Below, piece by piece: positions 35,783-64,000 of a DNA stretch of 64,000 bases. The position numbers were made by a program, and so were the translations under genes. Numbering within the stretch: the first letter of the stretch is position 1; each line of letters opens with the position of its first letter. Source of the DNA: Yersinia mollaretii ATCC 43969 (GTDB taxonomy: Bacteria; Pseudomonadota; Gammaproteobacteria; Enterobacterales; Enterobacteriaceae); assembly GCF_013282725.1 (NCBI RefSeq), contig NZ_CP054043.1, positions 2,418,001 to 2,482,000 of the forward strand. The letters are read 5' to 3'. The notes beneath the pieces are model-generated. The model made no database searches and was not told the DNA's origin. It saw nothing but the letters and a program-made list of their open reading frames with translations.

Positions 35783-35850
35783 ACGGATCTTATTGAAAGT
35801 TTAATGATTAGCTCGAATAATACGCGTGAAAGCCAAACAAGGACTTGTGC

Positions 35851-36813: not shown

Positions 36814-37382
36814 TGTTAATGGTTGGATAATCAAACAGCTACGATATTGATTTTTATTGAAATAATTGCATATGAATAAATGCCCCTCTAATCTAATAAA
36901 GTAGAATGATGTTTTTCTATTTTTGAAATCAGAATAAACCGAATTGATATTTTTATAATCTAGTGTAGGAAATTAGTTGTGTATTGAGAAATGTTCAAGA
37001 ATGATATGTTTCACATTTTTCTTGTAATGATAGGTTATATGTTAGAAAATTAGCCATAATATTAGTACTTAGTAGCTATTTTTGCTTAACTGAAAATGCG
37101 GTGAGTTTTTTTCATCTCTTTTGGTCAGGCCAGTAGGTTACATAAATGCAGGTGCTACGTGGTGTTACATGCCTATGTTATTTATCAGTGCATTGGTTAC
37201 TGCAAGCCAAGGGCGGTAGCATTGCTTTTAATCTAGTGAATTTATCTAGCCATTGATATTTTCGTAACAACTAAGTTTTATAATTAATTTATTTCATTTC
37301 ACTTTAATCTCAGCTTAAATAATCTATTTTGAGATGATATAAAAACATTCCCCACTAAATCTATTTTAGTCAGGCTTAAAAT
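36814..37382. other. hemH-ddhD intergenic region with O-antigen promoter region
   Basis: These 569 AT-rich bases hold no gene I can support. The JUMPStart/ops element lies at 37186-37222, so the operon promoter must lie upstream of it. The last 160 bases form the leader of ddhD. Confidence 0.7.
37186..37222 (+). promoter_or_regulatory. JUMPStart element with ops (RfaH recruitment), unit 1
   Basis: The sequence starts CAGTGCATTGG and ends with the ops core GGCGGTAGCAT (37212-37222). RfaH binds ops on the paused polymerase and lets it read long, weakly translated surface-polysaccharide operons. It precedes the whole ddhD-wzz unit. Confidence 0.92.
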
Positions 37383-38366
37383 ATGCCCTTCAATATAAAG
37401 CTACAACCATCAGGAGTTATTTTTGATGCTGAAGGATCTAAAACGATCTTAGATTCAGCTTTAGAAAATAACATCAATATCGAATATGGTTGCAAAGATG
37501 GTACCTGCGGTTCCTGTAAGGCAAAGTTAATTTCTGGTGAAATAGAACAGGATGATAATACGTCTTTGACCAATGAGGATGTTTCTAACGGATTTATTCT
37601 TACTTGTTGTTCCAAACCTAAAAGTGATATAGAAATCAATGTAAAATATTATCCAGAGCTAAGTCATATAACGGAAAAAACGTATCCATGTAAACTCGAT
37701 AATATTGAATTTATTGGCAATGATATAGCCATTCTAACATTACGCTTACCTCCAGCATCTAAGATAGAATATTTGTCAGGTCAATTTATTGATTTAATCA
37801 TTAATGGTCAGAGACGTAGTTATTCTATTGCTAATGCACCCGATAAAAAAATCGAGTTACATATAAGAAAAGTCCCAAATGGTCTTTTCAGCGAAATCAT
37901 TTTTAATGAGCTTAAGCTACAGCAGCTTCTTCGCATTGAGGGCCCGCAAGGCACGTTTTTTGTCCGCGATAATAGCCGACCGCTCATCTTCTTAGCGGGA
38001 GGGACGGGCTTCGCACCGGTTAAGGCAATGGTTGAGGAACTCATAAGTAAGAATGATAAACGTCCCATTCATATTTACTGGGGAATGCCTGAAAGCAAAC
38101 TTTTCTATTCTGATATAGCCCAAAAATGGGTGGCAGAATATCCACATATTCAATATGTCCCTGTAGTTTCGGGGGAAGATAGATCTTGGCATGGTCAAAC
38201 AGGGTTCGTTCATAAGGCTGTTATTAACGATTTCCCTGAGCTAAGTCACTACAGTATTTATGCTTGTGGTTCACTTGCTATGATCTCAGCCGCACATCAG
38301 GAATTTATTCAATATGGACTGGCTGAAGACCAATTCTTCTCTGACGCCTTTGTACCATCAAAGTAA
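37383..38366 (+). CDS. ddhD: CDP-6-deoxy-delta-3,4-glucoseen reductase (E3)
   Basis: This 327-residue flavoprotein has a plant-type [2Fe-2S] domain at the N-terminus ([12 protein letters not shown] with a fourth Cys in LTCCSK), a FAD domain ([10 protein letters not shown]) and an NAD domain ([12 protein letters not shown]). It supplies electrons to DdhC for C-3 deoxygenation in the synthesis of CDP-3,6-dideoxyhexoses. It is the first gene of the O-antigen cluster, as in Y. pseudotuberculosis. It is probably cytoplasmic. Confidence 0.95.
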
Positions 38367-38383
38367 TTAATATGGAGAGTAAA

Positions 38384-39157
38384 GTGAAAGCAGTTATTCT
38401 TGCCGGTGGTTTAGGTACTCGTCTTAGTGAAGAAACGGTAGTTAAACCGAAACCGATGGTAGAGATCGGTGGGATGCCTATTTTATGGCACATTATGAAA
38501 CTTTACTCTGCTTATGGGATTAATGATTTTATCATCTGCTGTGGTTACAAAGGCTATGTAATAAAAGAATATTTCGCTAATTACTTTATGCATATGTCCG
38601 ATATCACTTTCTCTATGCGTGATAATGAAATGAAAGTACATCACAAACGAGTAGAACCGTGGAATGTCACACTTGTTGATACTGGTGAACATTCAATGAC
38701 CGGTGGTCGTTTGAAGCGTGTCAAGGATTATGTAAAAGATGATGAGGCGTTTTGCTTCACTTATGGTGATGGTGTTAGTGACGTTAATATTGCTGAATTA
38801 ATTGAATTCCATAAAAACCATGGCAAGCAAGCAACATTAACTGCTACTTATCCACCAGGCCGCTTTGGTGCATTGGATATTCAGAATCAGCAGGTACGTA
38901 GCTTTAAAGAAAAACCGAAAGGTGATGGTGCATTGATCAATGGTGGATATTTTGTTTTATCACCTAAAGTAATCGATCTTATTGATGGTGATAAATCAAC
39001 TTGGGAACAAGAACCATTAATGACGTTAGCTGAACAAGGTGAGTTAATGGCTTTTGAACATACCGGTTTTTGGCAGCCAATGGATACCTTACGCGACAAA
39101 GTCTACCTGCATGAATTATGGGAAGCGGGTCGAGCTCCTTGGAAAGTCTGGGAATAA
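38384..39157 (+). CDS. ddhA: Glucose-1-phosphate cytidylyltransferase
   Basis: The enzyme makes CDP-glucose from CTP and glucose-1-phosphate, the entry step to 3,6-dideoxyhexoses. The nucleotide-binding motif is [13 protein letters not shown] and the sugar-site residues include KPMVEIGG. I prefer the GTG at 38384 (VKAVILAGG), with GGAG six bases upstream, because it gives the family's 257 residues. An ATG at 38372 would add four residues and lacks a ribosome site. It lies 17 bases behind ddhD and five before ddhB. Confidence 0.93.
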
Positions 39158-39162
39158 ATATC

Positions 39163-40236
39163 ATGATTGATAAACGCTTTTGGCAAGGTAAACGTGTTTT
39201 TATTACCGGACACACTGGTTTTAAAGGGGGGTGGTTGAGCCTATGGCTGCAAAACATGGGAGCAACGGTAAAAGGCTATGCTCTGGTTGCACCAACCGAG
39301 CCAAGTCTGTTCGAAACCGCACGCATTGCCGATGGTATGATTTCGGAAGTGGGTGATATTCGTAATTATGACCAGCTACTAAAATCAATTAGCGACTTTA
39401 AACCTGAAATTGTTTTCCATATGGCCGCGCAACCTTTAGTGCGATTATCCTACTCAGAACCCGTTGAGACATACTCTACTAATGTGATGGGTACTGTTTA
39501 TCTGCTAGAAGCTCTTCGGCATGTTGGTGGTACCAAAGCCATTATTAATATCACCAGCGATAAATGTTACGACAATAAAGAATGGGTTTGGGGATACCGT
39601 GAAAATGAAGCTATGGGAGGATATGATCCCTATTCAAACAGCAAAGGTTGTGCCGAGTTAGTCACATCTTCCTACCGAAACTCCTTCTTTAACCCTGCTA
39701 AATACGGGCAGCATGGTACAGCATTAGCAACTGTGCGTGCTGGTAATGTGATTGGTGGCGGAGATTGGGCATTAGATCGTGTCGTCCCTGATATTTTACG
39801 TGCATTCGAAAGATCATCGCCGGTTATTATTCGCAACCCACATGCAATTCGCCCATGGCAGCATGTGCTAGAACCCCTATCTGGTTATTTGTTGCTGGCA
39901 CAAAAAATGTATTGTGAAGGAGCCAAATTTGCTGATGGTTGGAATTTTGGACCTAATGATACCGATGCAACACCAGTACAGAATATCGTAGAGAAAATGG
40001 TGTCATTCTGGGGGCAAGATGCCAGTTGGCAGTTAGACGGCAATGAGCATCCTCATGAAGCACACTATTTGAAACTTGATTGTTCTAAAGCAAAAATGCA
40101 ATTAGGTTGGCACCCTCGATGGAGTCTCGATACAACATTAGCTCGTATTGTTGACTGGCATCAGGCTTGGCTGTCAGATACTGACATGCATGATTACAGT
40201 ATTAACGAAATTAATAGCTACATGAACACTAAATGA
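39163..40236 (+). CDS. ddhB: CDP-glucose 4,6-dehydratase
   Basis: This 357-residue short-chain dehydrogenase/reductase has the NAD motif TGHTGFKGGW and the catalytic YDPYSNSKG (Tyr-xxx-Lys). It converts CDP-glucose to CDP-4-keto-6-deoxyglucose. The start is the ATG at 39163 (MIDKRFWQGKR), right behind ddhA. A longer frame from 39118 would overlap ddhA and is rejected. Confidence 0.95.
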   Translation: MIDKRFWQGKRVFITGHTGFKGGWLSLWLQNMGATVKGYALVAPTEPSLFETARIADGMISEVGDIRNYDQLLKSISDFKPEIVFHMAAQPLVRLSYSEPVETYSTNVMGTVYLLEALRHVGGTKAIINITSDKCYDNKEWVWGYRENEAMGGYDPYSNSKGCAELVTSSYRNSFFNPAKYGQHGTALATVRAGNVIGGGDWALDRVVPDILRAFERSSPVIIRNPHAIRPWQHVLEPLSGYLLLAQKMYCEGAKFADGWNFGPNDTDATPVQNIVEKMVSFWGQDASWQLDGNEHPHEAHYLKLDCSKAKMQLGWHPRWSLDTTLARIVDWHQAWLSDTDMHDYSINEINSYMNTK

Positions 40237-40253
40237 TTTGAGGTCATAGATAA

Positions 40254-41567
40254 ATGAGTCAAGAACAATTACGTCAACAGATTGCTGAGTTAGTGGCTCA
40301 GTATGCTGAAACGGCTATGGCCCCAAAGCCATTTGAAGCAGGTAAGAGTGTTGTGCCTCCATCAGGCAAAGTTATTGGCGCTAAAGAATTACAACTGATG
40401 GTTGAAGCATCCTTGGATGGATGGTTAACCACTGGGCGTTTTAACGATGCTTTCGAAAAGAAATTGGGTGAGTATATTGGCGTCCCTTATGTGTTGACGA
40501 CCACTTCAGGTTCCTCTGCCAACCTACTTGCACTGACCGCATTAACATCCCCTAAATTAGGAGCTCGTGCTCTCAAGCCTGGTGATGAGGTTATTACTGT
40601 TGCTGCGGGATTCCCGACAACAGTAAACCCAACCATTCAAAATGGCTTAATTCCCGTATTTGTTGATGTTGATATTCCAACGTATAACGTCAACGCCAGC
40701 CTAATCGAAGCTGCTGTTAGCGATAAAACTAAAGCAATCATGATTGCGCATACTTTAGGCAACTTATTTGATCTGGCTGAAGTTCGTCGAGTAGCAGATA
40801 AATATAACCTATGGCTGATTGAAGACTGTTGTGATGCTTTAGGCTCCAAATATGATGGAAAAATGGCCGGAACGTTTGGTGATATCGGTACTGTCAGTTT
40901 CTATCCAGCTCACCATATTACAATGGGTGAGGGCGGTGCGGTATTTACAAAATCAGCCGAACTTAAATCTATTATCGAGTCATTCAGGGATTGGGGACGT
41001 GACTGTTATTGCGCACCAGGCTGTGATAATACCTGTAAGAAGCGCTTTGGCCAGCAACTAGGTTCTCTACCATTTGGTTATGATCATAAATATACCTATT
41101 CACACTTGGGTTATAACTTAAAAATTACCGATATGCAGGCGGCATGTGGTTTGGCTCAACTCGAACGTGTGGAAGAGTTTGTTGAAACACGTAAAGCAAA
41201 CTTTAAGTATCTCAAAGAAGCACTTCAATCATGTGTAGATTTTATTGAGTTACCTGAAGCCACTGAAAACTCAGATCCATCATGGTTTGGTTTCCCGATA
41301 ACTCTGAAAGAAGATTGCGGGATTAGCCGTATTGATCTGGTTAAATTCCTTGATGAAGCTAAAGTGGGAACTCGACTACTATTTGCCGGTAACTTAACTC
41401 GCCAACCCTATTTCCATGATGTGAAATATCGTGTTGTTGGTGAATTGACAAATACCGATAGAATTATGAATCAAACTTTCTGGATTGGTATCTATCCAGG
41501 ACTGACACATGATCACTTAGATTATGTAGTGAGTAAGTTTGAAGAGTTCTTTGGTTTGAATTTCTAA
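40254..41567 (+). CDS. ddhC: CDP-4-keto-6-deoxyglucose 3-dehydrase (E1)
   Basis: This 437-residue aspartate-aminotransferase-fold enzyme uses PMP and a [2Fe-2S] cluster to remove the C-3 hydroxyl. The PLP-binding lysine of normal aminotransferases is replaced by histidine ([12 protein letters not shown]), the mark of this family. Cluster cysteines lie in [13 protein letters not shown]. It works with DdhD. Confidence 0.95.
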
Positions 41568-41600
41568 TTAGGTAAGAGGTATTTAATACCTCATTTTATT

Positions 41601-42452
41601 ATGAAAATTCTTATTACTGGTATTAGTGGCTATTTGGGGAGTCAATTAGCTAATGCTTTAATACAAGAGCATGACGTCACTGGAACAGTACGTTCAGGAT
41701 CTGTATGTGGACGTATCTCTGATGTCAGAGATATTAATTTTATTAATGTTTCTGATAGTAATTGGTTAGATAAGATTGTATCACTTTCTCCTGATGTAGT
41801 TATTAATACCGCCGCATTATATGGACGGAAAGGGGAGCTACTTTCAGAGCTAGTAAATGCTAATATCCAATTTCCATTACGGATACTGGAAGCATTAGTC
41901 TCAACAGGAAAATGCCTATTTCTCCAATGCGGAACTTCTCTACCTGCGAATGTTAGTCAATATTCTTTGACTAAGAGCCAATTTAGCATTCTCGCCAAAG
42001 AATATTGCAGTAAGTCTAGCTGTAAATTTATAGACTTGAAGTTAGAGCATTTTTTCGGTCCTTTTGATGACTTAACTAAATTTACAACTTATGTCATTAA
42101 TAGCTGCAGAAATAATGTTGATCTAAAACTAACGACTGGTTTACAGCAGCGTGACTTTATTTATATCACTGATCTTATTAGTGCCTTCAAAACTCTCATT
42201 TCAAAATCAGAATATCTCATATCAGGTGAGAGTATTTCTATTGGGTCTGGACAAGCAATAACAATTAGAGAATTCGTTGATACTGTGATTGAAATTACTA
42301 ATTATCAAGGTGATGTTCAATTTGGCGCAATACCATCTAGAAAGAATGAAATTATGTATAGCTGTGCAACGTTAGAACGGCTGCATGAGCTTGGATGGGA
42401 GTGTGAATATTTATTGGATAATGCAATAAAAGATATTTTAATTAAGGAATAA
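41601..42452 (+). CDS. prt: CDP-paratose synthase
   Basis: This 283-residue NAD(P)-dependent reductase has the Rossmann motif TGISGYLGS and the catalytic YSLTKSQF. It matches the recalled Salmonella RfbS pattern (for example KLEHFFGPFDD, TGLQQRDFIYI and NEIMYSCA), which reduces the 4-keto group to give CDP-paratose. This is the last shared step before tyvelose. Composition is more AT-rich than ddhABC. tyv starts two bases after its stop. Confidence 0.9.
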   Translation: MKILITGISGYLGSQLANALIQEHDVTGTVRSGSVCGRISDVRDINFINVSDSNWLDKIVSLSPDVVINTAALYGRKGELLSELVNANIQFPLRILEALVSTGKCLFLQCGTSLPANVSQYSLTKSQFSILAKEYCSKSSCKFIDLKLEHFFGPFDDLTKFTTYVINSCRNNVDLKLTTGLQQRDFIYITDLISAFKTLISKSEYLISGESISIGSGQAITIREFVDTVIEITNYQGDVQFGAIPSRKNEIMYSCATLERLHELGWECEYLLDNAIKDILIKE

Positions 42453-42454
42453 AA

Positions 42455-43477
42455 ATGAAGCTTTTAATCACTGGGGGCTGTGGTTTTCTAGGTAGCAATT
42501 TAGCATCACACGCTATCCAATTAGGTATGGAAGTTGTTGTATTTGATAACTTATCACGCCATGGTTCATATGAGAACCTTAGATGGCTAGAGTCTATTGG
42601 TAAATTTACACATGTACATGGTGATATTCGTAATAAGAATGATGTAGTTAAATTGATTCAGCAGTATCAACCACATAATATCTTCCATCTAGCTGGCCAA
42701 GTTGCAATGACAACATCTATCGATAATCCCCAAAAGGACTTTGATATCAATGTTGGTGGTACATTCAATTTGCTTGAGGCAATACGCTTATTTAATCCAA
42801 ATTGCGGTGTTATTTATTCTTCAACTAACAAAGTATATGGAGATTTAGAGCAGTTCACATATAGGGAGACAGATACGCGCTATGAATGTATCGAAATGCC
42901 TGATGGGTTTGATGAGAATGTCCAGTTAACTTTCCATTCACCTTATGGCTGCTCTAAGGGGGCTGCGGACCAATATATGCTTGATTATGCACGAATATAC
43001 GGACTTAAAACTGCAGTTTTTCGTCATTCTTCAATGTATGGTGGACGCCAGTTTGCAACAGTAGATCAAGGTTGGGTTGGTTGGTTTTGTCAACAAGCTA
43101 TAGAGACTTCCAAAAATAATGTAATTACGCCATTTACAATATCAGGCACAGGCAAGCAAGTTAGAGACCTTTTGCATGCGGATGATATGATTAAACTTTA
43201 TTTCTCAGGGATGAGGAAGATCGATAAAATTTCGGGTGAAGTATTTAATATTGGCGGAGGGATTGTCAATAGCCTGTCACTCTTAGAACTATTTAAGATC
43301 TTAGAGAATAATACTAGTACTAAACTGATATATAAAAATTTACCAGCCAGATCAAGTGATCAAAGAGTCTTTGTGGCAAATATACGGAAGGCATCAGAAG
43401 CCTTTAATTGGGTACCAACAGTCTCATCCGAAGAAGGAGTAAAGAAAATGTTGGAGTGGTGCAAGAATTGCGCCTAA
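42455..43477 (+). CDS. tyv: CDP-paratose (CDP-tyvelose) 2-epimerase
   Basis: The 340-residue epimerase has TGGCGFLGSNLAS, the NAD-binding motif, and the catalytic YGCSKGAADQYMLDY. It closely resembles Salmonella RfbE, including VAMTTSIDNP and SSTNKVYGDLEQ. It turns CDP-paratose into CDP-tyvelose. The presence of an apparently intact tyv means the side sugar is probably tyvelose, as in Y. pseudotuberculosis O:4 and Salmonella group D. Confidence 0.93.
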   Translation: MKLLITGGCGFLGSNLASHAIQLGMEVVVFDNLSRHGSYENLRWLESIGKFTHVHGDIRNKNDVVKLIQQYQPHNIFHLAGQVAMTTSIDNPQKDFDINVGGTFNLLEAIRLFNPNCGVIYSSTNKVYGDLEQFTYRETDTRYECIEMPDGFDENVQLTFHSPYGCSKGAADQYMLDYARIYGLKTAVFRHSSMYGGRQFATVDQGWVGWFCQQAIETSKNNVITPFTISGTGKQVRDLLHADDMIKLYFSGMRKIDKISGEVFNIGGGIVNSLSLLELFKILENNTSTKLIYKNLPARSSDQRVFVANIRKASEAFNWVPTVSSEEGVKKMLEWCKNCA

Positions 43478-43540
43478 TAAGCGTATGTAACTCCTATGGC
43501 TAACTGTACAAACATTGTTCAATGGTGACGTGGTAAAATA

Positions 43541-44386
43541 ATGGAATTATCAATTTGTATTCCGACTTATAATCGAAGTGGTAGCTTAATAAAACAAATT
43601 AATTTTGTATTAGAGGATGCTATATCAATAATGTCAGATGATATGTTTGAAATTATTATTTCTGATAATAAATCTGATGACGAACATCATAAGAAAATAA
43701 TTAAAGAAATAGAGGGGCTCAAACAAAAATACCCTACAGTTAATTTATATTATTTTTCTAATAAAGAAAATGTTGGCTTAGTTAGGAATTTAAAGGTATT
43801 GGCAAATATTGCAAAAGGTAAATACATTTGGTTTGTGGGTGATGATGATGAAATCCATAAAGGTATTATTAGTAAAATATTGCCATTATTGAATGAGAAT
43901 AAAGGGATGGTTTTTATAAACCACAGAGCTGTAGATAAAGATAATAATATTTTAATGGACAAAGCTTTCATTGGAAATAAGCATAAATCATTGTATGAAA
44001 TATTTAAACATAGCAATACGACGATGATGTTTATAACAGCATGTGTATATAAGAAAGAGTTTGTTGATGAAGTCTTTGAAAATGAAGATAGTCGATTATC
44101 ACTCCCCTTTTACCTGTCATTTTATTGTTTTGAAAAGTCAGGTGCTACATTAGTTAATGATATTATGATAGATAATTATTGGGGGGACACATCTTGGAGT
44201 GATAGTTCTTGGATTGTATTTAATAATCAGATACCAAGGGATATATTTAAGATAATAAAGGAAAGTAAGAATAAAAAAGATGCAGTTTTTGCTTTTTATC
44301 CATTTTTGATTAAGACATTTGTGTCGATTGCAAAACATAAAATATTTAAATTTATAAAATTTTTTTTGAAAAAAAATGATAAATAA
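43541..44386 (+). CDS. GT2 glycosyltransferase, candidate dideoxyhexosyl (tyvelosyl) transferase
   Basis: This 281-residue GT-A family protein starts MELSICIPTYNRSGSL and has the acidic metal site VGDDDEIH (residues about 99-106). A C-terminal basic helix (IFKFIKFFLKK) could hold it to the membrane. It sits where Salmonella rfbV and Y. pseudotuberculosis wbyH-type genes are, behind the dideoxyhexose genes, so transfer of tyvelose is a reasonable inference. It overlaps wzx by 11 bases. Very AT-rich. Confidence 0.75.
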   Translation: MELSICIPTYNRSGSLIKQINFVLEDAISIMSDDMFEIIISDNKSDDEHHKKIIKEIEGLKQKYPTVNLYYFSNKENVGLVRNLKVLANIAKGKYIWFVGDDDEIHKGIISKILPLLNENKGMVFINHRAVDKDNNILMDKAFIGNKHKSLYEIFKHSNTTMMFITACVYKKEFVDEVFENEDSRLSLPFYLSFYCFEKSGATLVNDIMIDNYWGDTSWSDSSWIVFNNQIPRDIFKIIKESKNKKDAVFAFYPFLIKTFVSIAKHKIFKFIKFFLKKNDK

Positions 44387-45689
44387 CTCAAATAAAATTG
44401 CGCTGCTATCAATAATATCCCAGATAGTGAGAGTGTTTTCTGGCCCTTTAGTTATTATTGTGGTTGCAAAAACTCTCACTACAGGGGAAATGTCCCTGTA
44501 CTATGCGTTTTTCAATGTTATTGCTCTGCAGCAGATAATGGAAATGGGGATTGGGTTTACAATAAAGCAATATATATCACATTCTTATAAACTCACGGAA
44601 AAAAACGAATGGGGCCAAGAATCAAAAGCTAATATAATATCTTATATGAAATTTTCGTTTTTGTGGTATTTGGTTATTTCTCTTTTTATATTTTTTATAC
44701 TTGGTTATGTTGGTAGTGTATTTTTCAGTAGCTATAAAGGAAGTACAGACTGGAAAGGTGCATGGTGGATGTTGGTATTTATAACTGGATTCTTTACAAT
44801 AGTAACACCTTTTCAGTTTTTAATTGAGGGATGTCAGCGACAAATCTCAATATATAAGTCCAGACTTCTATCTGGTATATTTTTATCATTAGTTTTAGGT
44901 TTAAGCTTATATTATGGTGCGGGATTGTATAGTATTGCGATTGCCGTTTTCATTTCAAATTTAATTTTTTATCTATACTTGTTTAAAACAATTAAGGAAT
45001 TAGTCAGCGAACTGATTGGTGTTAAAACTAAAAAAAATATAAAAACAACATTTATTGAAGTCTGGGATATGCTTTCTAAAATATCTGTAACATGGATTTT
45101 AGGATACTTCTTTTGGAACTCATTTAATCTTATAGCCTTTAAAATGCTCACCAATGACTTAGCAGGTAGATTTGGTTTTACTCTTAGTTTAGTTCGTGCA
45201 GGATATTCAATTGCAGAATCTATAGTTGCAAGCCAAACAACTATCTATGCGTCCTATATCAGTGCAGGGGAAGTTAAGCTAGCAAGAAGACAGTTTGAAA
45301 AATCAATGTATATATCTATGGCATTACTAATTTCGGGATATTTTTTATATATAGCCGTTTATAAGATATTGCCAGGATTATTTATTTTTGATAAAACGTT
45401 AAATTTAACTTATACGATAGAAATGTTTCTATATTTTGTTCTATTGCTACCTGTAACATCTCAGGCTAATTATTGTCGCTGTTTTAAAAATGAGCCATAT
45501 TTTAAATTATCACTGTTTATGAATATTCAGGTGCCGATAGTTTTTTATCTAACATGTTATTATGTCGGTGAGCCTAACTTCATATATTTACTGCCATTTA
45601 GCATGTTGTCACTTATATGGTCTTGCTATATATATTATGATACTGAGAATAGATATAAAATTAAGTGCCGCCAAGAGAATATGAAATGA
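44376..45689 (+). CDS. wzx: O-antigen flippase Wzx
   Basis: This 437-residue polytopic protein has about twelve hydrophobic helices, starting near residues 12-32 and 42-60. It is of the polysaccharide-transporter (MOP) family. It should flip the undecaprenyl-linked repeat unit across the inner membrane. The identification rests on topology, size and its place among glycosyltransferases and a polymerase. The start overlaps the preceding gene; the stop overlaps the next ATG (ATGA at 45686-45689). Confidence 0.85.
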   Translation: MINNSNKIALLSIISQIVRVFSGPLVIIVVAKTLTTGEMSLYYAFFNVIALQQIMEMGIGFTIKQYISHSYKLTEKNEWGQESKANIISYMKFSFLWYLVISLFIFFILGYVGSVFFSSYKGSTDWKGAWWMLVFITGFFTIVTPFQFLIEGCQRQISIYKSRLLSGIFLSLVLGLSLYYGAGLYSIAIAVFISNLIFYLYLFKTIKELVSELIGVKTKKNIKTTFIEVWDMLSKISVTWILGYFFWNSFNLIAFKMLTNDLAGRFGFTLSLVRAGYSIAESIVASQTTIYASYISAGEVKLARRQFEKSMYISMALLISGYFLYIAVYKILPGLFIFDKTLNLTYTIEMFLYFVLLLPVTSQANYCRCFKNEPYFKLSLFMNIQVPIVFYLTCYYVGEPNFIYLLPFSMLSLIWSCYIYYDTENRYKIKCRQENMK

Positions 45690-46624: not shown

Positions 46625-46685
46625 TGGTGTGCTGATTTATCAAGATGACTTCGATTTCAATATGATTTACTATTAATGAGGCAAA

Positions 46686-47465: not shown

Positions 47466-47533
47466 ATTCATATGATTAGTTTTGGCTAATGTAGCATCTA
47501 TTAAACAAAAATAAATTAAAAGTGCCAACTATA

Positions 47534-48760: not shown

Positions 48761-48765
48761 TAATT

Positions 48766-50031: not shown

Positions 50032-50150
50032 ATATTAAAATCTGTTGTTAATAAGATTTTTTCAAAACACTACTAATACACTGATGTGTATAGTGCTATT
50101 GATTTCCATCAAGTGTGGAATGTGAATTATTGTTGGGTGATTATAACATT

Positions 50151-51269: not shown

Positions 51270-51273
51270 TAAC

Positions 51274-52239: not shown

Positions 52240-52369
52240 TATAGTCTGATATGAATTATCCTTTGGTAACTACTGATAGAGATCTTATTGATCAGTTCCT
52301 GGCTATAAGCTAATAATCAGGTCTATTTCAAGTACCAAATTCTATTTTCACGATAGGACGTAATTGCTT

Positions 52370-53776: not shown

Positions 53777-53778
53777 GT

Positions 53779-54522: not shown

Positions 54523-54526
54523 TAAC

Positions 54527-55897
54527 ATGTCTAAACTAACCTGTTTCAAAGCTTATGATATTCGTGGCCGACTAGGTGATGAATTAAATGAAGATATAGC
54601 TTATCGTATAGGTCGTGCTTATGGTGAGTTTGCTAAACCTAAGAAGGTTGTAGTTGGTGGTGATGTTAGATTAACTAGTGAAAATCTTAAGTTAGCTTTG
54701 AGCAAAGGCTTGCAGGATGCGGGAACTGATGTTTTTGATATTGGTTTATCAGGCACGGAAGAAATGTATTTTGCTACCTTCCATCTTGGAGTTGATGGTG
54801 GTATCGAAGTCACTGCTAGCCATAATCCAATAGATTACAACGGAATGAAACTTGTTCGTGAGGATTCTAGGCCCATCAGTGGAGATACAGGATTGCTGGA
54901 TATTCAATATTTAGCTGAGCAGAATGAATTTCCAATCGTAGATAGTAATAAAATAGGTAGTTATAAAAAGATATCTATTCTTGATGAGTATATCGATCAT
55001 TTAATTAGTTATATATCTCCACCTAATTTTAAGCCTTTAAAATTAGTGATTAACAGTGGTAATGGTGCTGCTGGTCATGTTATTGATGCATTGGAAAAAC
55101 GGTTTTCTGAATTAACTATTCCGATAACTTTGATAAAAATAAATCATGAACCAGATGGGACATTCCCTAATGGTATCCCAAATCCATTATTACCTGAGTG
55201 TCGGCAAGATACCACTGATGCCGTTTTAGCATATGGCGCGGATATGGGGATTGCTTTTGATGGTGACTTTGATCGTTGTTTTTTCTTTAATAACAAAGGT
55301 GAATTTATCGAGGGATACTATATTGTTGGACTTTTAGCCGAGAGCTTTTTGCAGAAAAATGCTGGCGCTAAAATTATTCATGATCCTCGTTTGAGTTGGA
55401 ATACTATAGATATAGTTAATACCTTAGGTGGGAAACCTATAATGTCCAAAACCGGACATGCGTTTATTAAAGAACGTATGCGAAAAGAAGATGCAGTTTA
55501 TGGTGGTGAAATGAGTGCTCATCATTATTTTCGCGATTTTTCTTATTGTGACTCAGGAATGATTCCATGGTTGCTTATCTCTGAAATTATATCCGTCAAA
55601 GGGAAAAGTCTGGAACAATTAGTTAAAGAGCGTATGCTCGCTTACCCTGCATCTGGAGAAATAAACTCTAAGTTAATCGATCCAATCTCTGCAATAGCAA
55701 GAGTTCGTTCTGCATATGAAGATAGAGCTATTAGTATTAATGAAATTGATGGGATTAGTATGGAGTTTTCTGAGTGGCGATTTAATTTGCGCAGCTCAAA
55801 CACCGAGTCTGTTGTACGATTAAATGTTGAATCAAAGCGTGATAAACAGCTAATGGAAATAGAAACATCGAATATTTTAAGAATATTAAGGAAGTGA
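54527..55897 (+). CDS. manB: Phosphomannomutase (ManB)
   Basis: This 456-residue phosphohexomutase has the phosphoserine loop [14 protein letters not shown], the metal loop [10 protein letters not shown] and the sugar loop [10 protein letters not shown]. It converts mannose-6-phosphate to mannose-1-phosphate for ManC. Confidence 0.95.
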
Positions 55898-56183
55898 TTT
55901 TTTATAACTATATGACTTAATACAGTACTATCAGAAATGATAGTATAGAAAATACTAGAATAAATTACTTTTAACTTGTCCGGATGTTTTAATAATAGTG
56001 TATAGCTGAGTGCTGAGCAAGCCCTAAACTTGCTAAGAGAAAGTTGGGCTGGTAAGCGAAAAAGGATTTATCTGACATACTTCAAAATGCCTGAGATGGT
56101 AAAATCTGCATCAGAACAGCTATAACTGATAGCTCTTTCTTCGTAATTAATAGTTACTACTCTAATAGAAATGGATAAAATTG

Positions 56184-57227
56184 ATGAATGGCAGATCTAT
56201 AGATGATAAGAAGTTATCTTCCTTTGAGCAATATAAGTTATCTTCTAATAAGGATGAAATAGATCTCATAGAACTAGTATCTATTGTGTTAAATTCATAT
56301 AAGTCAGTTGTTTTTATTACCCTAGCGTTTGTTTTTTTTGGGGGGTGTACTATATTTTTCTCTCCAAAAAACTGGGTCAGTTCTGCGGCTGTTTCTCTCC
56401 CTTCCGATCTTCAACTTCAATCTCTAGAAACTGTAAATACCTCACTGTTGTTATTAAATATTGATATTAATATTAGTCAAGAGGATGTTTTTGGGGTATT
56501 TAGAAAGTATTACTCATCTCAGGATCTATTTAATAAGTACTTAGATACTCTGAAGGTTAAGCCGGTAGGGAGTGTGTCGGTTACAGGAATTGTTACAGAT
56601 AAAAATGCTTATATTCTCAGTTACAATTCTAGTATAGATTCTGGTATGAAAGAAATATTGTCTGGCTACATTGATTATGTTAACAGACAAGTGAGTAATA
56701 ATATAAATTATAATATTGAACTTATATTAGATACTTCCAAAAAAACAGCGAATGAAGAGTATCAGCTTGCTTTACAGCAAGCTGAAAATGAGCAGAAGGT
56801 TAAAATACAACGATTGGAATATGCTGCGTTAATAGCTAAAGCCGCTGGATTGCAAAAACCAATTAACAATGAGTTTGAGAGTCTTGATAAAATTTCGAGT
56901 TATCCTATTTCATTGGGTTATGATGCATTAGATAAGCAATTAGAAATTGAAAAATCAATATCAGATCTAACGACAATTAATGCTGAGTTACTTAATAAAA
57001 AACTCTATCTAGATAAAATTAATGCACTTCAGCCAGTGATCATTCATCTTGATGCATTCGAATATTTACAGTTCCCTTCTGAACCAGTGCAGCAAGATGC
57101 TAAAAAGCGTCTTCTCACAATAATTATATTTGGCTTTATTGGCTTTGTTAGTTCTATTGGATTTGTCTTGGTTCGTCATTATATTCGTGAACGACAGGCT
57201 GCATTACTTAAATTGCCGAACGAATAA
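56184..57227 (+). CDS. wzz: O-antigen chain-length determinant Wzz
   Basis: The 347-residue protein has an N-terminal membrane helix (about residues 40-58), a long periplasmic helical region, and a C-terminal proline-containing stretch FPSEPVQQDAKKR before the second membrane helix (about 308-330). It sets the modal length of Wzy-made chains. The ATG at 56184 is used; a TTG at 56181 abuts it. It is last in unit 1 and is followed by a terminator. Between manB and wzz lie 286 bases with no gene seen. Confidence 0.92.
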   Translation: MNGRSIDDKKLSSFEQYKLSSNKDEIDLIELVSIVLNSYKSVVFITLAFVFFGGCTIFFSPKNWVSSAAVSLPSDLQLQSLETVNTSLLLLNIDINISQEDVFGVFRKYYSSQDLFNKYLDTLKVKPVGSVSVTGIVTDKNAYILSYNSSIDSGMKEILSGYIDYVNRQVSNNINYNIELILDTSKKTANEEYQLALQQAENEQKVKIQRLEYAALIAKAAGLQKPINNEFESLDKISSYPISLGYDALDKQLEIEKSISDLTTINAELLNKKLYLDKINALQPVIIHLDAFEYLQFPSEPVQQDAKKRLLTIIIFGFIGFVSSIGFVLVRHYIRERQAALLKLPNE

Positions 57228-57254
57228 TATCTTTGCTTTATCCTCTTCATGATT

Positions 57255-57298
57255 AGGGCGATGGTGTAGTTTAAGCCATCGCCCTTTCTGTTTTTGTG
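57255..57298 (+). terminator. Intrinsic terminator after wzz
   Basis: AGGGCGATGG (57255-57264) pairs with CCATCGCCCT (57276-57285) and is followed by TTCTGTTTTT. It closes unit 1 and makes unit 2 dependent on its own promoter. Confidence 0.92.
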
Positions 57299-57791
57299 AC
57301 CTCTTTGTATTAGTCCTATTCCCCAGAGAACTTCCAACCGATTTTGTAATATTTCCGTTACTGACATACCTCACATTTTGTTTGGAGAGTAGTCAAAAAG
57401 ACTAAAGCAAACCTCGGTTCTGTGTTCCAAAGATTTCATCCCGCCATATTTCGATTCCAGTTATAGTCACTGGCTTTCGACACACCACTCTCGTAGCAAA
57501 TATTCCCCCACATGTTAGTCACCTGAAACTTCCTCTAAGGCCGCAGAATATTAATTGTCGTAACACGAAGCTACAGCATAAAACCACTGCTAACTGATTG
57601 TATTTTAATCAGGTAATGATGGGGTGTGGTATGGGAAATCTAGGTGAGGCAATAAGTTATGTACAAAATTAGTACAAATAAATGGCGGTTTTTCCATATC
57701 TATGATTAGTTAATACTACTAACTAAAGGTAATTTTTGGAAATAACCTGTCGATTTATGAATTTATGGCTAAGCTTTACCTTGTAAAATGT

Positions 57792-57828
57792 CAGTGCATT
57801 GGCTGCTGTGAGCCAAGGGCGGTAGCGT
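57792..57828 (+). promoter_or_regulatory. JUMPStart element with ops, unit 2
   Basis: The 37-base element starts CAGTGCATTGG and ends with the ops core GGCGGTAGCGT (57818-57828). It differs from the first element (37186) at only four of the first 35 positions. It lies downstream of a terminator, so a second RfaH-controlled transcript is expected. Confidence 0.92.
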
Positions 57829-58063
57829 TCTATTAGTCTCCCCAGTGTCAGGATTGTTTGATTTCACTCATAAACGATTGGCACGGTTGTCTAAAATTTT
57901 TTGGGGAATTTGACACGACAAAAACGTTCCACACTGTCTCTGGCACAATCCATATCCGTGATTTGATATTATTGTTGCTACAGCACGAGAGCTTCATATC
58001 TCATGATGACAATCTCAGAATTTGCCATGAATCTTTTAAGATCAAAGTACGATTGGGACTAAA

Positions 58064-59182
<1,119 letters not shown>

Positions 59183-59187
59183 TTGCG

Positions 59188-59357
59188 ATGAATGAAAAAT
59201 GTTTGTTTGTCTCGGGTCATCATGGAGTGGTAATACCTGCTGTTGTTTGCCGACTAGTCAATGTACAAGATATTTAATAAGTGCTAGCTATATTTCTTCT
59301 GGCATCATTCATGTTATTGGTAATGCTGAATTAGCTCCATTTTTGTTTGTGTGTAAG
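59188..59357 (+). pseudogene. Remnant of a second fcl (GDP-fucose synthase)
   Basis: An ATG at 59188 opens a 29-codon frame (MNEKCLFVSGHHGVV, ending at TAA 59275). It aligns with the fcl N-terminus ([15 protein letters not shown]) in the NAD-binding loop. Just downstream, the frame at about 59301-59357 reads GIIHVIGNAELAPFLFV, resembling the later fcl stretch [17 protein letters not shown]. The roughly 80 residues between are deleted and the rest of the gene is gone. It lies five bases after gmd copy 2, where fcl lies after gmd copy 1. Confidence 0.75.
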
Positions 59358-59653
59358 CATTTAAATTAAAATGGTTTTATAGGACTAGAAAAGTCAGGAG
59401 TAAGTTTTTAAGCCCTGGGTTTTTTACTGAGTAGGTTTTGAATAAATATAACTATTACTCTTGAGTATTCCTGTTGATGAAACCTATTTCCATAATGTGA
59501 TTTATTTAATAGGGCGGTTTTATTTAATTATTTCCTATATTCAGACTAAATGTTTGAAGTGCAAACCCTCGACACCAAATATGAATCATTCCAACGAAGA
59601 CAATAATATCAGTTTTCAAAGCACCGCTGGGTGTCTGATTGGAGTAAACTAAA
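59278..59653. other. Gap between the fcl remnant and wzm
   Basis: 376 bases with no intact gene. The first 80 carry the second fcl fragment; the remainder is AT-rich sequence without a recognisable frame, presumably scar DNA from loss of fcl and any genes between it and wzm. Confidence 0.55.
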
Positions 59654-60439
59654 TTGTTTTTATCTCTTTGGCGCCATCGCAGTTTGGTTATTGAACTGAC
59701 AAAACGAGAGTTTTCCGGAAAATATCGTGGCTCTTTCGGGGGGGCTATTTGGTCTCTGATACAGCCTCTATTTATGCTTGCAGTTTATACCGTTGCCTTT
59801 GGTGTTATTCTCAAAGCAAGATGGGGATTTTCTGGTTCGACGGTGGACTATGCCCTTATGCTATTTGCAGGTTTGATTGTTTTTAATCTATTTTCTGAAG
59901 TTCTTACTAAATCAACAATGCTGATTGTCGGGCAACCCAACTTTGTCAAAAAGGTGGTTTTTCCTTTGGAGTTGCTGCCCGTAATTACGGTGTTCACAGC
60001 ATTGGTTCATGCTTTTATTGGTATTGCTGTATGGTTGGTAGGATATCAGTTGCTGATAGGTACACCAAAGCTGACGATACTATATTTCCCTCTGGTTTTA
60101 TTCTGTTTTTTGCCGGTTTTATTAGGTGTGGGATGGCTACTTTCATCGATTGGAGTGATTTTTCGTGATATTAGCCAGATAACTAGCATGCTTAATCATG
60201 TATTACTTTTTTTGACCCCAATTTTTTTTAGTATTGAAGCCGCCCCCCCCTTGTTACAAAAATTTCTGCTGTTAAATCCATTGACCTTTATTGTCGAACA
60301 ATTCCGCCTGATCTTGTTTTATGGAGAAATACCTATGTTCAATGGCCTGGCTATATATTTTGTGTTGGCAACGCTATTTGCCTGGCTCTCGTTTATGTTG
60401 TTCAGACGTTTGCGTCCCAACTTTGCAAACATGGTGTAA
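59654..60439 (+). CDS. wzm: Polysaccharide ABC transporter permease Wzm
   Basis: The 261-residue ABC-2 type permease has six hydrophobic helices and the N-terminal amphipathic pattern LTKREFSGKYRGSFGGAIWSLIQP typical of Wzm/KpsM-like exporters. The start is TTG at 59654, nine bases behind GGAG. With Wzt it exports completed lipid-linked polysaccharide across the inner membrane, an alternative to Wzx/Wzy. wzt starts directly behind its stop. Confidence 0.92.
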   Translation: MFLSLWRHRSLVIELTKREFSGKYRGSFGGAIWSLIQPLFMLAVYTVAFGVILKARWGFSGSTVDYALMLFAGLIVFNLFSEVLTKSTMLIVGQPNFVKKVVFPLELLPVITVFTALVHAFIGIAVWLVGYQLLIGTPKLTILYFPLVLFCFLPVLLGVGWLLSSIGVIFRDISQITSMLNHVLLFLTPIFFSIEAAPPLLQKFLLLNPLTFIVEQFRLILFYGEIPMFNGLAIYFVLATLFAWLSFMLFRRLRPNFANMV

Positions 60440-61750
60440 ATGATGACCAATGTCGCCATTTCAGTTCGTAATGTCAGTAAATGTTACCGTGTATTTGATG
60501 ATCAACGCTCTCGATTGCTACACGCTATTTGGCCCAAATATGTAAATGGCATGCAAGATGTTTGGGCCTTGAAAGATATTAACTTTGAGGTACAGCGGGG
60601 GGAAGCTATTGCGCTTATCGGCCGCAATGGTGGTGGCAAAAGTACTCTGCTTGAAATATTGACAGGCACGCTGACGCCCACGACAGGAGAGGTCAATGTC
60701 AACGGCCGCGTCTCCGCCTTGTTGGAACTCGGTAGTGGTTTTAATCCTGAATATTCAGGAAGGGATAACGTCATATTAAATGGTTTGCTATTGGGATTAA
60801 GCAAACAGGAAATAGTGGAGCGTTTTGATGAAATTGAGGCTTTTGCAGAAATAGGTACGGCTATTGAACGGCCTGTCAAAACCTATTCCAGTGGCATGAT
60901 GATGCGTTTGGCTTTCTCGGTACAAGTCCTTTGTGAACCGGATATTCTCATTATTGATGAAGCACTTAGTGTGGGAGATTTTTTCTTTCAGCAAAAGTGT
61001 TTTAGCTATATTCGGGGGTTGCGTACTAAAGGCGTTACGCTGCTATTCGTTTCACATGATATGGGTACAGTGCGGGATCTGTGTAGCCATGCACTCTATC
61101 TGCAACAAGGGCAGTTGGTGTGGAATGGCGAGGTTAATGCGGCAATTCAGCGCTATCTTGGTGGGGAGTCATCGGTGAAAACGTCGGTGGATACAGTATG
61201 TCCCCCAGACAATCTCATATCTGCAAAAGATCTTAGCTCAGAAAACCCATGGGGAAACGTGGCCTTATGGCAGAGAGCAAGAAGGGCGGATCAGATGACA
61301 CAAATTGTGGCCGTTGTGATAGAGGATATTGTCGGTAATGCCACACAGGTGATACGACTCGGAGAAACACTACGTTTGATAGTGTGGTATCAGGCCAACG
61401 AAGTTGGGCCCGTGCATGTTAGCGTGCTGATAAAAAATGCTTATGAACAACTGGTTAATTGCACCAGTTCTTACACGTTAGGCATCCCAATGCTGGCGAG
61501 TACTGGCTGTCATCTTGCTACTTTTACGCTTGATCTTGACTTCAATCTTGAGGCTGGACAGTACTCGCTCATGGTCAGTTTAGGGGTGATCGGTGAGCAG
61601 CCCAATCAAGGGACGATACTGGATGAAACACCTTATTTGGGACCATTAACTGTCCGTTGGGACTATTCAGTCGATATTCCACCATTTTTAGGCATGTTCG
61701 GAGTGCCAGTTCGTGCCAATTCTCCTGTGCTTTACCAAGAAGAGATTTAG
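60440..61750 (+). CDS. wzt: Polysaccharide ABC transporter ATPase Wzt with C-terminal carbohydrate-binding-like domain
   Basis: This 436-residue protein has an ATPase domain (Walker A GRNGGGKST near residue 67, signature YSSGMMMRLAF near 150, Walker B ILIIDEALSVGD). It then has an extra domain of about 170 residues (about 265-430) rich in beta strands. The family has two forms; those with this extension, such as Wzt of E. coli O9a, bind the modified non-reducing end of the finished chain. I therefore expect a terminal modification of the exported glycan. Confidence 0.92.
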   Translation: MMTNVAISVRNVSKCYRVFDDQRSRLLHAIWPKYVNGMQDVWALKDINFEVQRGEAIALIGRNGGGKSTLLEILTGTLTPTTGEVNVNGRVSALLELGSGFNPEYSGRDNVILNGLLLGLSKQEIVERFDEIEAFAEIGTAIERPVKTYSSGMMMRLAFSVQVLCEPDILIIDEALSVGDFFFQQKCFSYIRGLRTKGVTLLFVSHDMGTVRDLCSHALYLQQGQLVWNGEVNAAIQRYLGGESSVKTSVDTVCPPDNLISAKDLSSENPWGNVALWQRARRADQMTQIVAVVIEDIVGNATQVIRLGETLRLIVWYQANEVGPVHVSVLIKNAYEQLVNCTSSYTLGIPMLASTGCHLATFTLDLDFNLEAGQYSLMVSLGVIGEQPNQGTILDETPYLGPLTVRWDYSVDIPPFLGMFGVPVRANSPVLYQEEI

Positions 61751-62081
61751 TCGTTATGGATATTCCAAAAAATATGGGATTTACATAGTTCTGCTTTTCC
61801 AAAATAGTTGGTTTATCTGCGGACATCCTTTTTGCATTATTACCGCCTAAGAGATTCTTAATACCAGATTTTTATCTGGTACGAGAGAGGTTAGTGTAAC
61901 GCGGAGAAAAATGGAGAGTGTCTTCACGATTTTTTATTGAATAAGTGGTGTAGACTTTGAACTATTATCTAAATATGTGTCAATACTGTCTTTTCCTCGC
62001 CACTCACTAATAATCATGTACCCGATGGTCGGTAGAAACTAAAAGGTATATTTAAGAAAATGGAAAATTCTTGGGGGCTCT
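61751..62081. other. wzt to methyltransferase-glycosyltransferase gap
   Basis: 331 bases with no gene seen. A small perfect hairpin, TACCAGAT (61862-61869) with ATCTGGTA (61874-61881), lies inside without a following T-run. The AT-rich remainder may hold an internal promoter for the next gene. Confidence 0.5.
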
Positions 62082-63767
62082 ATGGGAGCGGTAAATTTCT
62101 CTATTGATCCAAATTTGGTTAGCATATTAAAGAAGGCAATTCCGCTGGATATTTTTGTCGAAACAGGAACTTTCAAGGGAGATACTATTGAGTCGGTTCG
62201 GGATCAGTTCAGCGAGATCTATTCTGTAGAATTATCACGTGAATATTATGATACGGCAGTACAACGTTTTGATGGCGATGTGCACATAAATTTGGTTCAT
62301 TCGGACTCTCCTTCGGCAATGCAGGTGTGGGGACCAAAATTAAGTGAGCAATCGGTGTTGTATTTTCTTGATGCACATTGGTGCGCTGCAGAAAATACAG
62401 CGAGTATCTCGTCTCAGTGCCCATTGCTGGAAGAAATAAAAGCGATTGGCAGACTCAATATTGAAAGTGTTATTGTTATTGACGATGCCCGTTTATTTCT
62501 GGCTCCACCATTAGCACCGCACGAAATATCTCAATGGCCTAGTTTTCATCAGATTGTTTCTAGTCTCCTTTCAATGAGTTGCAATCATGAATTAATGGTT
62601 GTTAATGATGTCATTGTTTTTTATCCCAAACAGTCCAACATTGCGATGCAAAATTACGCACAAACTTACGGGATCGATTGGCTGATAGCAGCACAAAGTA
62701 TTCGTAATGAATGGTTGGCAGAGGCTGAGAAAAAGGAGCATGTGATACAGCAACTGAGTCAATCTTTATCTGACAAAGATATTCTGCTTGAAAAGCAATA
62801 TAAAACAATTCATGCTTATCGTGCTGCATATGGCAGCCTTGCCCTGCTTGGGCCTGTTGCTCGAGTCATTCGTAGACTATATGAAATAGCCAGACCTCGA
62901 TTAGGTAATCTTAATCAATATGCACCTAGGGAAATGAGTATCGGGCTTTATCAAACAAATAAAAATCTTAATTACTACCCATTAATCTCAATCGTGACAC
63001 CTTCATACAATCAAGGTGAATTTATTGAGAGAACAATTACCAGCATCCTCGATCAGCAATATCCCAAGTTAGAGTATTACGTTCAGGATGGTGGTTCAAC
63101 AGACCGTACTGTCGAGGTACTGAAGCAATATCAGGCTAGACTTTCTGGCTGGGCTTCGGAACCAGATAGCGGACAATCGCAAGCCATCAATCGCGGGTTA
63201 TCGAAAACCAGTGGTGAAATTATGGCTTGGCTCAATTCCGATGATTTACTGTTGCCGGGCGCTTTGCATGTCGTGGCTGATTATTTTAACCGCCATCCAG
63301 ACATTGATGTTGTATATGGTAACCGATTGCTGATAGACGAAAACGATAAGGAAATTGGCCGCTGGATCCTACCGGGACATAATAATGAAGTCTTATCGTG
63401 GACAGATTATGTCCCACAAGAAACCTTATTTTGGCGGCGAAGTATCTGGGAGAAAGCCGGTGGTGAAATTGATGAGTCATTCCGTTTTGCCATGGATTGG
63501 GATCTATTAGTGCGCTTTAGGGATGCTGGTGCCCACTTTGGGCATATTGACCAATTCTTGGGCGCATTCAGGATTCATGCATCTCAGAAAACATCATCTG
63601 AAATAAATGAAGTCGGTCATCAAGAAATGGACCGAATCCGTATGCGTGTTCTGGGTTCAGTTCCGGATCAGAAAGCGATCCGTAAAGCTATTTTCCCCTA
63701 CTTGATTAAACACATCGCGATGGATATGAATTACCGAATTAGAACCCGGTTGGGAATGAAAGTATAA
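62082..63767 (+). CDS. Fusion of SAM-methyltransferase-like domain, coiled coil and GT2 glycosyltransferase
   Basis: The 561-residue protein begins with a class I methyltransferase-like domain (about residues 1-190): LDIFVETGTFKGDT (SAM-loop-like), IYSVELSREYY and YFLDAHW. Residues about 205-245 form a charged helical stretch (EAEKKEHVIQQLSQSLSDKD). From about 300 there is a GT2 domain: ISIVTPSYNQGEFIERTI, QDGGSTDRTVEV and the acidic WLNSDDLLLPG. A methyltransferase fused to a chain-building enzyme next to an extended Wzt suggests it ends or caps the chain. Activity of the methyltransferase part is not proven; some such domains serve other roles. Confidence 0.75.
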   Translation: MGAVNFSIDPNLVSILKKAIPLDIFVETGTFKGDTIESVRDQFSEIYSVELSREYYDTAVQRFDGDVHINLVHSDSPSAMQVWGPKLSEQSVLYFLDAHWCAAENTASISSQCPLLEEIKAIGRLNIESVIVIDDARLFLAPPLAPHEISQWPSFHQIVSSLLSMSCNHELMVVNDVIVFYPKQSNIAMQNYAQTYGIDWLIAAQSIRNEWLAEAEKKEHVIQQLSQSLSDKDILLEKQYKTIHAYRAAYGSLALLGPVARVIRRLYEIARPRLGNLNQYAPREMSIGLYQTNKNLNYYPLISIVTPSYNQGEFIERTITSILDQQYPKLEYYVQDGGSTDRTVEVLKQYQARLSGWASEPDSGQSQAINRGLSKTSGEIMAWLNSDDLLLPGALHVVADYFNRHPDIDVVYGNRLLIDENDKEIGRWILPGHNNEVLSWTDYVPQETLFWRRSIWEKAGGEIDESFRFAMDWDLLVRFRDAGAHFGHIDQFLGAFRIHASQKTSSEINEVGHQEMDRIRMRVLGSVPDQKAIRKAIFPYLIKHIAMDMNYRIRTRLGMKV

Positions 63768-63827
63768 AAACAGTTTTCCCTTTTATCGTTGGCACGTTGC
63801 AAAACAGAATTAAGGAAAATGCTTATT

Positions 63828-64000
63828 ATGTCTGCTTTCTTATTTACCTTGGGTATTTTTGCCTTCTGGGCGATGCTTGGTTATGCAGTTATTACGGTTT
63901 TTCAGCCTCGATTACGCATACTTCAAGGGATATTAATATCACCAGCCGTTGGTATCGCTGTTACCGTACTCGCTGTTTTTTTTATTAATCGGGCTGGAAT
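63828..64000 (+). CDS. Membrane protein, partial at right edge
   Basis: A frame opening at ATG 63828 (or the in-frame ATG at 63819) behind AAGGA runs off the window. The visible residues contain two hydrophobic helices (AFLFTLGIFAFWAMLGYAVI and the stretch ILISPAVGIAVTVLAVFFI). The type resembles polytopic membrane proteins of polysaccharide loci, such as polymerase- or glycosyltransferase-like membrane enzymes, but too little is seen to name it. Confidence 0.6.
   Translation, partial: MSAFLFTLGIFAFWAMLGYAVITVFQPRLRILQGILISPAVGIAVTVLAVFFINRAG

Follow-up and report, generated by a model that had tools for sequence, protein, structure and literature searches.

The DNA analysed here (the window) is a stretch of 64,000 nucleotides from Yersinia mollaretii ATCC 43969, bases 2418001-2482000 of a one-contig genome of 4.60 Mb, and it includes the left border and much of the O-antigen locus between hemH and gsk. 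This interval measures 40.7 kb and houses two gene clusters with one JUMPstart element apiece: unit 1, of Wzx/Wzy/Wzz type, and unit 2, which encodes an ATP-binding cassette (ABC) transporter. An earlier, sequence-only reading had proposed two different polysaccharide assembly systems in tandem at this locus, and both gene sets and both JUMPstarts were indeed found, with gmd, wzm, wzt and a glycosyltransferase (GT) fusion present behind the second JUMPstart as open reading frames (ORFs) with matching Pfam or NCBIfam domains. As the 3′ part of unit 2 lies beyond the window, the next 20 kb were added to reach gsk, and coordinates above 64000 continue the window numbering through them; a further 13.4 kb of unit 2 lies past the window end, which falls inside the GT-C gene, and the full list of the unit comes to 18 genes, all open. 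We propose, with a probability of about 0.7, that the locus holds two O-polysaccharide systems in tandem, and that unit 2 is an inserted ABC transporter-dependent cluster with its own JUMPstart. The borders, signals and unit 2 genes are as follows.

35845-36813, +, hemH, left border of the O-antigen locus (ORF; matched in 25/25 genus genomes)
37186-37223, +, JUMPstart 1 (Rfam RF01707, 46.6 bits, E 8.7e-8)
57255-57298, +, intrinsic terminator closing unit 1 (minimum free energy -21 kcal/mol, z -5.67)
57792-57829, +, JUMPstart 2 (RF01707, 52.8 bits, E 1.5e-9)
58064-59182, +, gmd2, GDP-mannose 4,6-dehydratase (TIGR01472, 590 bits)
59654-60439, +, wzm, ABC transporter permease (PF01061, 84 bits)
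60440-61750, +, wzt, ABC ATPase with C-terminal glycan-binding domain (PF00005, PF14524)
62082-63767, +, fusion of a methyltransferase-like domain, helical linker and GT2 domain, a predicted polymerase-terminator
63789-66617, +, GT-C membrane glycosyltransferase (TTG start, 942 amino acids; predicted fold)
66619-67590, gtrB, polyprenyl-phosphate sugar synthase (PDB relatives)
67695-68435, methyltransferase
68416-68817, gtrA (PF04138, above cut-off)
68814-69779, epimerase (epi)
69974-70822, SDR (sdr)
70807-71829, Gfo/Idh oxidoreductase (gfo)
71813-72796, hddA (best PDB match a heptose enzyme; below NCBIfam cut-off)
72818-73522, hddC (best PDB match MurU; below NCBIfam cut-off)
73519-74118, gmhA (best PDB match a heptose enzyme; below NCBIfam cut-off)
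74133-74672, gmhB (below NCBIfam cut-off)
74669-75385, transaldolase (tal; TIGR02134, above cut-off)
75490-76230, GT2 (Pfam)
76255-77394, GT4 (Pfam), last gene of unit 2
77469-78773, gsk, right border, directly after the GT4 gene

The genes wzm and wzt abut, and Wzt carries at residues 282-394 a match to the Wzt_C domain PF14524 (37.8 bits; cut-off 30.4) behind an ATPase part that resembles 8dku. By Pfam, unit 2 has three GT domains, those of the fusion (GT2), the GT2 and the GT4, which are predicted to be cytoplasmic and polymerising. The linker of the fusion is helical and variable among relatives, with a heptad signal in only 3/6 linkers tested; no family match was found for its N-terminal domain, and a fold search with the fusion recovered the GT domain only. 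The GT-C protein, for which the database entry P0121 begins later (929 amino acids), was found in a class-wide search in 1/369 genomes, the source genome itself. With GtrB and GtrA encoded beside it, the predicted gene set would be that of GtrABC-type periplasmic glycosylation; spacers from the GT-C gene onward measure -20 to 194 bases. At the other end of the unit, gmd2 appears unpaired, and its product shares 329/372 residues (88%) with that of gmd1, the gmd of unit 1. A recent copying of gmd1 was considered and rejected, as gmd2 is 88% identical to gmd1 vs 84-90% to the gmd genes of loci L089, L094, L101 and L103. Among 5,426 Escherichia coli genomes, 337 match part of 57200-64000, and the 20 listed match around gmd only (75.8-77.2%).

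Comparison of the interval across the genus, as the sequence-only reading had suggested, covered 20 intervals from 24 other genomes, the four with hemH and gsk on different contigs being left out; the Y. alsatica interval (genome G016) is in two contig pieces, and intervals L089 and L101 stop inside gsk. Where hemH and gsk share a contig, in 19 other genomes, the span is 1.5-19.8 kb, against 40.7 kb here. Against the nearest intervals, those of G005 and G020, left-hand homology stops at the wzz stop (57227) and restarts at 77406, 11 bases after the last unit 2 gene; in G005 the two flanking homology blocks are 126 bp apart and the wzz-gsk gap is 190 bp. This break and restart indicate that unit 2 is a clean insertion of ~20.2 kb between wzz and gsk. 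No shared repeats of at least 10 bp were found at the insertion ends. A search of unit 2 spacers (four here, one in Y. alsatica) for leftovers of unit 1 genes gave nothing below E 0.2 with one exception, a 22-amino-acid manC-like scrap on the minus strand of Y. alsatica (L084:618-1739, E 3e-4), which lies between wzz and wzm, occupies the place that gmd2 has here, and may stem from an earlier cluster. The GC content of unit 1 (35.7%), unit 2 (42.8%) and window positions 1-35000 (48.8%) suggests different histories.

At the Rfam cut-off of 35 bits for RF01707, one JUMPstart was found in 19/20 of the other intervals and none in 1/20 (G012). Pattern matching places an ops-like element, GGCGGTAGCAT, at 37212 in JUMPstart 1 and an ops element, GGCGGTAGCGT, at 57818 in JUMPstart 2; ops elements in known systems are served by one factor, RfaH. 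The flanks of the two JUMPstart regions differ, and the second region is 83% identical to Y. alsatica over 172 bp. The two elements are also direct repeats (84% over 50 bp) that bracket the 20 kb of unit 1, and recombination between them could swap or delete that unit. The hairpin at 57255-57298, 3′ of wzz, had been read as the terminator of the first cluster, and the folding test agrees (z -5.67): it has a T-rich tail, and 0/200 shuffles folded equally well. A simple terminator scanner reported none in 57200-58100, missing this hairpin because its 9-nt loop exceeds the allowed 8, and promoter-like sites in the same region were at chance level (3 found vs 2.5 expected).

Unit 2 also occurs in Y. 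alsatica (contig 10 of G016, L084), again after wzz and with gsk next. By tblastn the two species share the order wzm, wzt, fusion, GT-C (75% identical), gtrB, epi, sdr, gfo, hddA, hddC, gmhA, gmhB, tal, GT2 and GT4, and a GtrA-like ORF between gtrB and epi was read by eye. The Y. alsatica unit differs in having no gmd2, in two methyltransferase-like ORFs, read by eye, whose sequence is unlike those here, and in a JUMPstart-like element that falls below the Rfam cut-off and was seen by relaxed pattern and blastn only. Its epi-sdr spacer is ~0.8 kb vs ~117 bp here (69795-69911; L052:5795-5911), the difference being most of a methyltransferase-like ORF (L084:11748-12698) of which the last 19 codons are matched here at 89%; this could equally be a loss here or a gain in Y. 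alsatica.

In a search of 60 genomes that included the 25 of the genus, a close Wzm was found in 2/25, the source genome and Y. alsatica (89%), and the same two encode an HddA-like kinase. Wzm relatives at 29-33% occur in nine other genus genomes, six of them >350 kb from gsk and three on another contig. For Y. enterocolitica and Y. mollaretii, too, relatives of the fusion or of the GT-C protein are on record, and unit 2 genes are thus common to several species. Among the 50 loci returned by a contig scan with the fusion protein, not one bore a Yersinia title, though the scan may skip the source genome and those closest to it; more than one unit 2-like gene was found in 41/50, many of them general GT2 matches, with wzm in 8, wzt in 17 and the GT-C gene in 0. 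On one Peregrinibacteria contig (L013), homologues of epi (45%), gfo (42%) and sdr (29%) are grouped, and this sugar module may travel widely.

Unit 1, which precedes the insertion, contains the following features.

37383-41567, +, genes that we take to be ddhD, ddhA, ddhB and ddhC, for CDP-3,6-dideoxyhexose precursors (matches in L101, L103 and L104)
41601-43477, +, a prt-like SDR gene, presumably prt, and CDP-tyvelose 2-epimerase (tyv)
43541-44386, +, glycosyltransferase GT2 (PF00535)
44376-45689, +, wzx, O-unit flippase-like (NF041503, 60.1 bits, below the cut-off of 300)
45665-47465, +, two glycosyltransferases GT2 (PF00535)
47522-48760, +, wzy, O-antigen polymerase candidate (10 transmembrane segments by a simple hydropathy rule)
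48757-50031, +, glycosyltransferase GT4 (PF00534)
50115-55897, +, gmd, fcl, manC, GT2 and manB, for GDP-mannose and GDP-fucose precursors with one GT
56181-57227, +, wzz, chain-length regulator (PF02706, 38.5 bits; cut-off 25.5)

Identity to L101, L103 and L104 is 71-83% for ddhD, 93-94% for ddhA, 85-88% for ddhB and 96-97% for ddhC; the prt-like gene is 66% identical to L101, and gmd, fcl, manC and manB are 81-92% identical to L101 and L103, with Pfam matches for gmd and manB. The tyv product matches the CDP-tyvelose-2-epimerase 1orr at 544.5 bits vs 129.9 for the best differently named entry. The wzx product has seven transmembrane segments by the same hydropathy rule and no Pfam match, and the wzy candidate, with no family match in Pfam or NCBIfam, has a homologue (83%) in Y. 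enterocolitica; both were assigned on membrane pattern, place and exclusion. Wzz also matches NF007699, Wzz(fepE), at 257 bits, below the cut-off of 300. There are five GTs, the one among the GDP-sugar genes having NCBIfam GT matches below cut-off. Jointly with the reading of unit 2, and at the same probability, unit 1 is likely an ordinary O-antigen cluster of Wzx/Wzy/Wzz type for a repeat with tyvelose-, mannose- and fucose-type sugars.

Some peculiarities of the compared genomes may be recorded here. The G012 interval of only 1.5 kb holds a wzz-like gene and no JUMPstart, and the gsk match of this genome (G012:C1:1714984-1716323) is split into two overlapping pieces. The hemH match of Y. 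alsatica (G016:C24:6801-7763) contains one internal TAA stop, and in the G020 interval (L086:3587-3730) an Rfam match to the small RNA isrN (126.9 bits) lies amid partial ddh gene matches.

Gene content, intactness, insertion, selection and predicted folds were computed, whereas the enzymatic steps, expression and the presence of two polymers per cell are what we infer from them. Most likely, unit 2 makes a second, ABC-exported O-polysaccharide, one that would carry an end cap recognized by Wzt and receive its decoration in the periplasm. WecA would prime undecaprenyl phosphate, and the cytoplasmic transferases (fusion GT2, GT2 and GT4) would build a chain containing heptose supplied by the hddA, hddC, gmhA and gmhB cassette, possibly one for GDP-D-glycero-D-manno-heptose, together with the transaldolase. 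Capping may fall to the methyltransferase-like domain at the N-terminus of the fusion, spaced by the helical ruler, whereupon the C-terminal domain of Wzt would recognize the cap and Wzm/Wzt would export the chain; GtrB, GtrA and the GT-C enzyme would attach a side sugar in the periplasm, and WaaL would ligate the chain to lipid A-core. Parts of this scheme have known counterparts. In end-capped systems Wzt bears a glycan-binding domain, and ORF6-O7 of Klebsiella pneumoniae O7 resembles the fusion in its N-terminal methyltransferase, coiled-coil and C-terminal GT2 modules (PMC11231755). ORF6-O7, however, has a kinase, a carbohydrate-binding module (CBM) and two GT2 modules, whereas the fusion has a short linker, one GT2 and no kinase seen; the WbdD protein of E. 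coli O9a has no polymerizing GT, unlike what is predicted for the fusion. Citrobacter youngae O1/O2 is described as having an ABC-exported, end-capped O-polysaccharide, as proposed here, with a polyprenyl-phosphate sugar synthase, a flippase and a GT-C enzyme bearing a β-strand-rich CBM domain (PMC11127046), although its flippase is of MATE type and its sugar a pentofuranose, while the flippase here is of GtrA type.

The sequence-only reading had allowed that unit 2 would be a remnant if it lacked initiating and polymerizing GTs beyond the window, or was not transcribed. Past the window end unit 2 in fact has further GTs, of GT-C, GT2 and GT4 type, and the genome has two PF00953 and two PF04932 matches above cut-off, among them WecA, encoded next to wzzE, and a WaaL-type ligase whose gene neighbours a lipopolysaccharide (LPS) heptosyltransferase-like gene (names read from the sequences), so that initiation and ligation are available. 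The second PF04932 protein lies at 2185110-2185529. Between this unit and that of Y. alsatica, the ratio of non-synonymous to synonymous substitution rates (dN/dS) is 0.014-0.132 over 14 shared genes (0.060 for gfo), the set being without gmd2, the methyltransferase, gtrA and GT4; with dS close to saturation (0.6-1.3) the ratios are rough, yet they are clearly <1, and all 14 genes appear to be under purifying selection. On the genetic side of that proposal, therefore, the further GTs, WecA, WaaL and purifying selection speak against decay, and unit 2 is probably not a remnant. Decay is hinted at by the shortened methyltransferase-like ORF, though a gain in Y. alsatica would explain it equally, and by the unpaired-looking gmd2, and since dN/dS is an average across all the time since the split from Y. 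alsatica, it would miss a loss of very recent date; with every gene open and selection evident in each gene examined, we regard a decaying remnant as very unlikely. Alternatively, the product of unit 2 could be a capsule or exopolysaccharide that is not linked to LPS, as ABC exporters serve capsules too and in a Vibrio cholerae strain O-antigen genes are co-located with those for a capsule, transporters of both types being present (PMC11380512). Unit 2, however, encodes no PF05159 or PF02563 match, and these partners of group 2 (Kps) export, Capsule_synth and Poly_export, are found instead at a separate group 2-like (Kps-type) locus at 4.31-4.32 Mb (G000:C1:4311399-4321681; L116:7399-17681). 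That locus has its own ABC exporter (an ABC-2 permease and an ABC ATPase), a GT2, a Stealth-type protein, two Capsule_synth proteins (KpsS/KpsC-type), Poly_export and a 390-amino-acid protein without Pfam match; Capsule_synth matches occur in 6/25 genus genomes. Unit 2 had been taken for either a second O-polysaccharide or a capsule-like glycan, and while the former is the likelier reading, the latter is weakened by the Wzt_C domain and the separate capsule locus; on these grounds we set the capsule aside as an improbable product of unit 2.

It is also conceivable that unit 2, though intact and under selection, is expressed under conditions other than those for unit 1, one polymer at a time, with the two JUMPstart regions and their promoters acting as a switch. 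The different flanks of the two JUMPstart regions and the terminator of unit 1 would accommodate this; no sequence sign of opposite regulation was seen, and ops-like elements, which would be served by RfaH, occur in both units, so that we consider such a switch unlikely. Finally, the two units could form one hybrid pathway in which the GT-C enzyme, GtrA, GtrB and the methyltransferases decorate the unit 1 polymer, much as the Gtr systems of Salmonella and Shigella modify O-antigens after polymerization (PMC11127046). Unit 2 itself, however, encodes an exporter as well as cytoplasmic GTs, and Y. alsatica retains unit 2, yet the GT genes on its hemH-side contig piece are at best 59% identical to those here, which leaves a hybrid pathway scarcely credible. 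The reading we prefer is that of two complete-looking O-polysaccharide systems.

That known Yersinia loci between hemH and gsk carry a single cluster, as the sequence-only reading had it, no longer holds. Most Y. enterocolitica O-clusters are either hemH-gsk Wzx/Wzy types or ABC types elsewhere, but serotypes O:7/O:19 carry wzm/wzt together with wzx/wzy between hemH and gsk, as here, an arrangement described in that study as previously unreported in Yersinia (PMC11380512, 2024); in its hemH-gsk strains, moreover, the 5′ end is said to be taken up by 3,6-dideoxyhexose genes, as in unit 1. An arrangement of this kind was therefore already known in the genus, O:7/O:19 being the only Yersinia precedent among the top-ranked literature matches. 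Y. enterocolitica has homologues of Wzy of unit 1 (P0242, 83%) and the GT-C protein of unit 2 (P0124, 82%), both with the same longest contig (266176 bases), so that very likely one Y. enterocolitica contig holds both units. Neither a mechanism for the ABC part nor any chemistry is given in the sections of PMC11380512 on O:7/O:19. What is added here is the full gene list, the apparent clean insertion, the evidence of selection and a proposed mechanism for the ABC unit, together with the presence of unit 2 in Y. alsatica and the finding that the source genome also has a capsule locus of Kps type. Beyond Yersinia, Pseudomonas aeruginosa makes the ABC-dependent A-band and Wzy-dependent B-band O-polysaccharides in one strain and on the same core, from clusters at separate loci. 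Both mechanisms in one locus are not reported in the abstracts on the O-locus of Burkholderia cenocepacia (PMC5462993) or on those of Haemophilus parainfluenzae (PMC3989065), whose isolates use one or the other.

Rather tentatively, at somewhat less than even odds, we would go further and suggest that one cell makes from one locus two O-polysaccharides by unrelated mechanisms, that the ABC-exported polymer is new, heptose-containing, capped and decorated, and that its terminator is a compact methyltransferase-ruler-GT2 protein with relatives in several proteobacterial lineages. If true, this strain would, with its capsule locus, have three separately exported surface polysaccharides besides enterobacterial common antigen. 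Yersinia O-serotyping reads one polymer from hemH-gsk; two intact systems could give two O-specificities, with confusing results in serotyping and two receptors for phages, and the locus would provide a natural case for the sharing of WecA, WaaL and the lipid carrier between Wzy-made and ABC-made chains.

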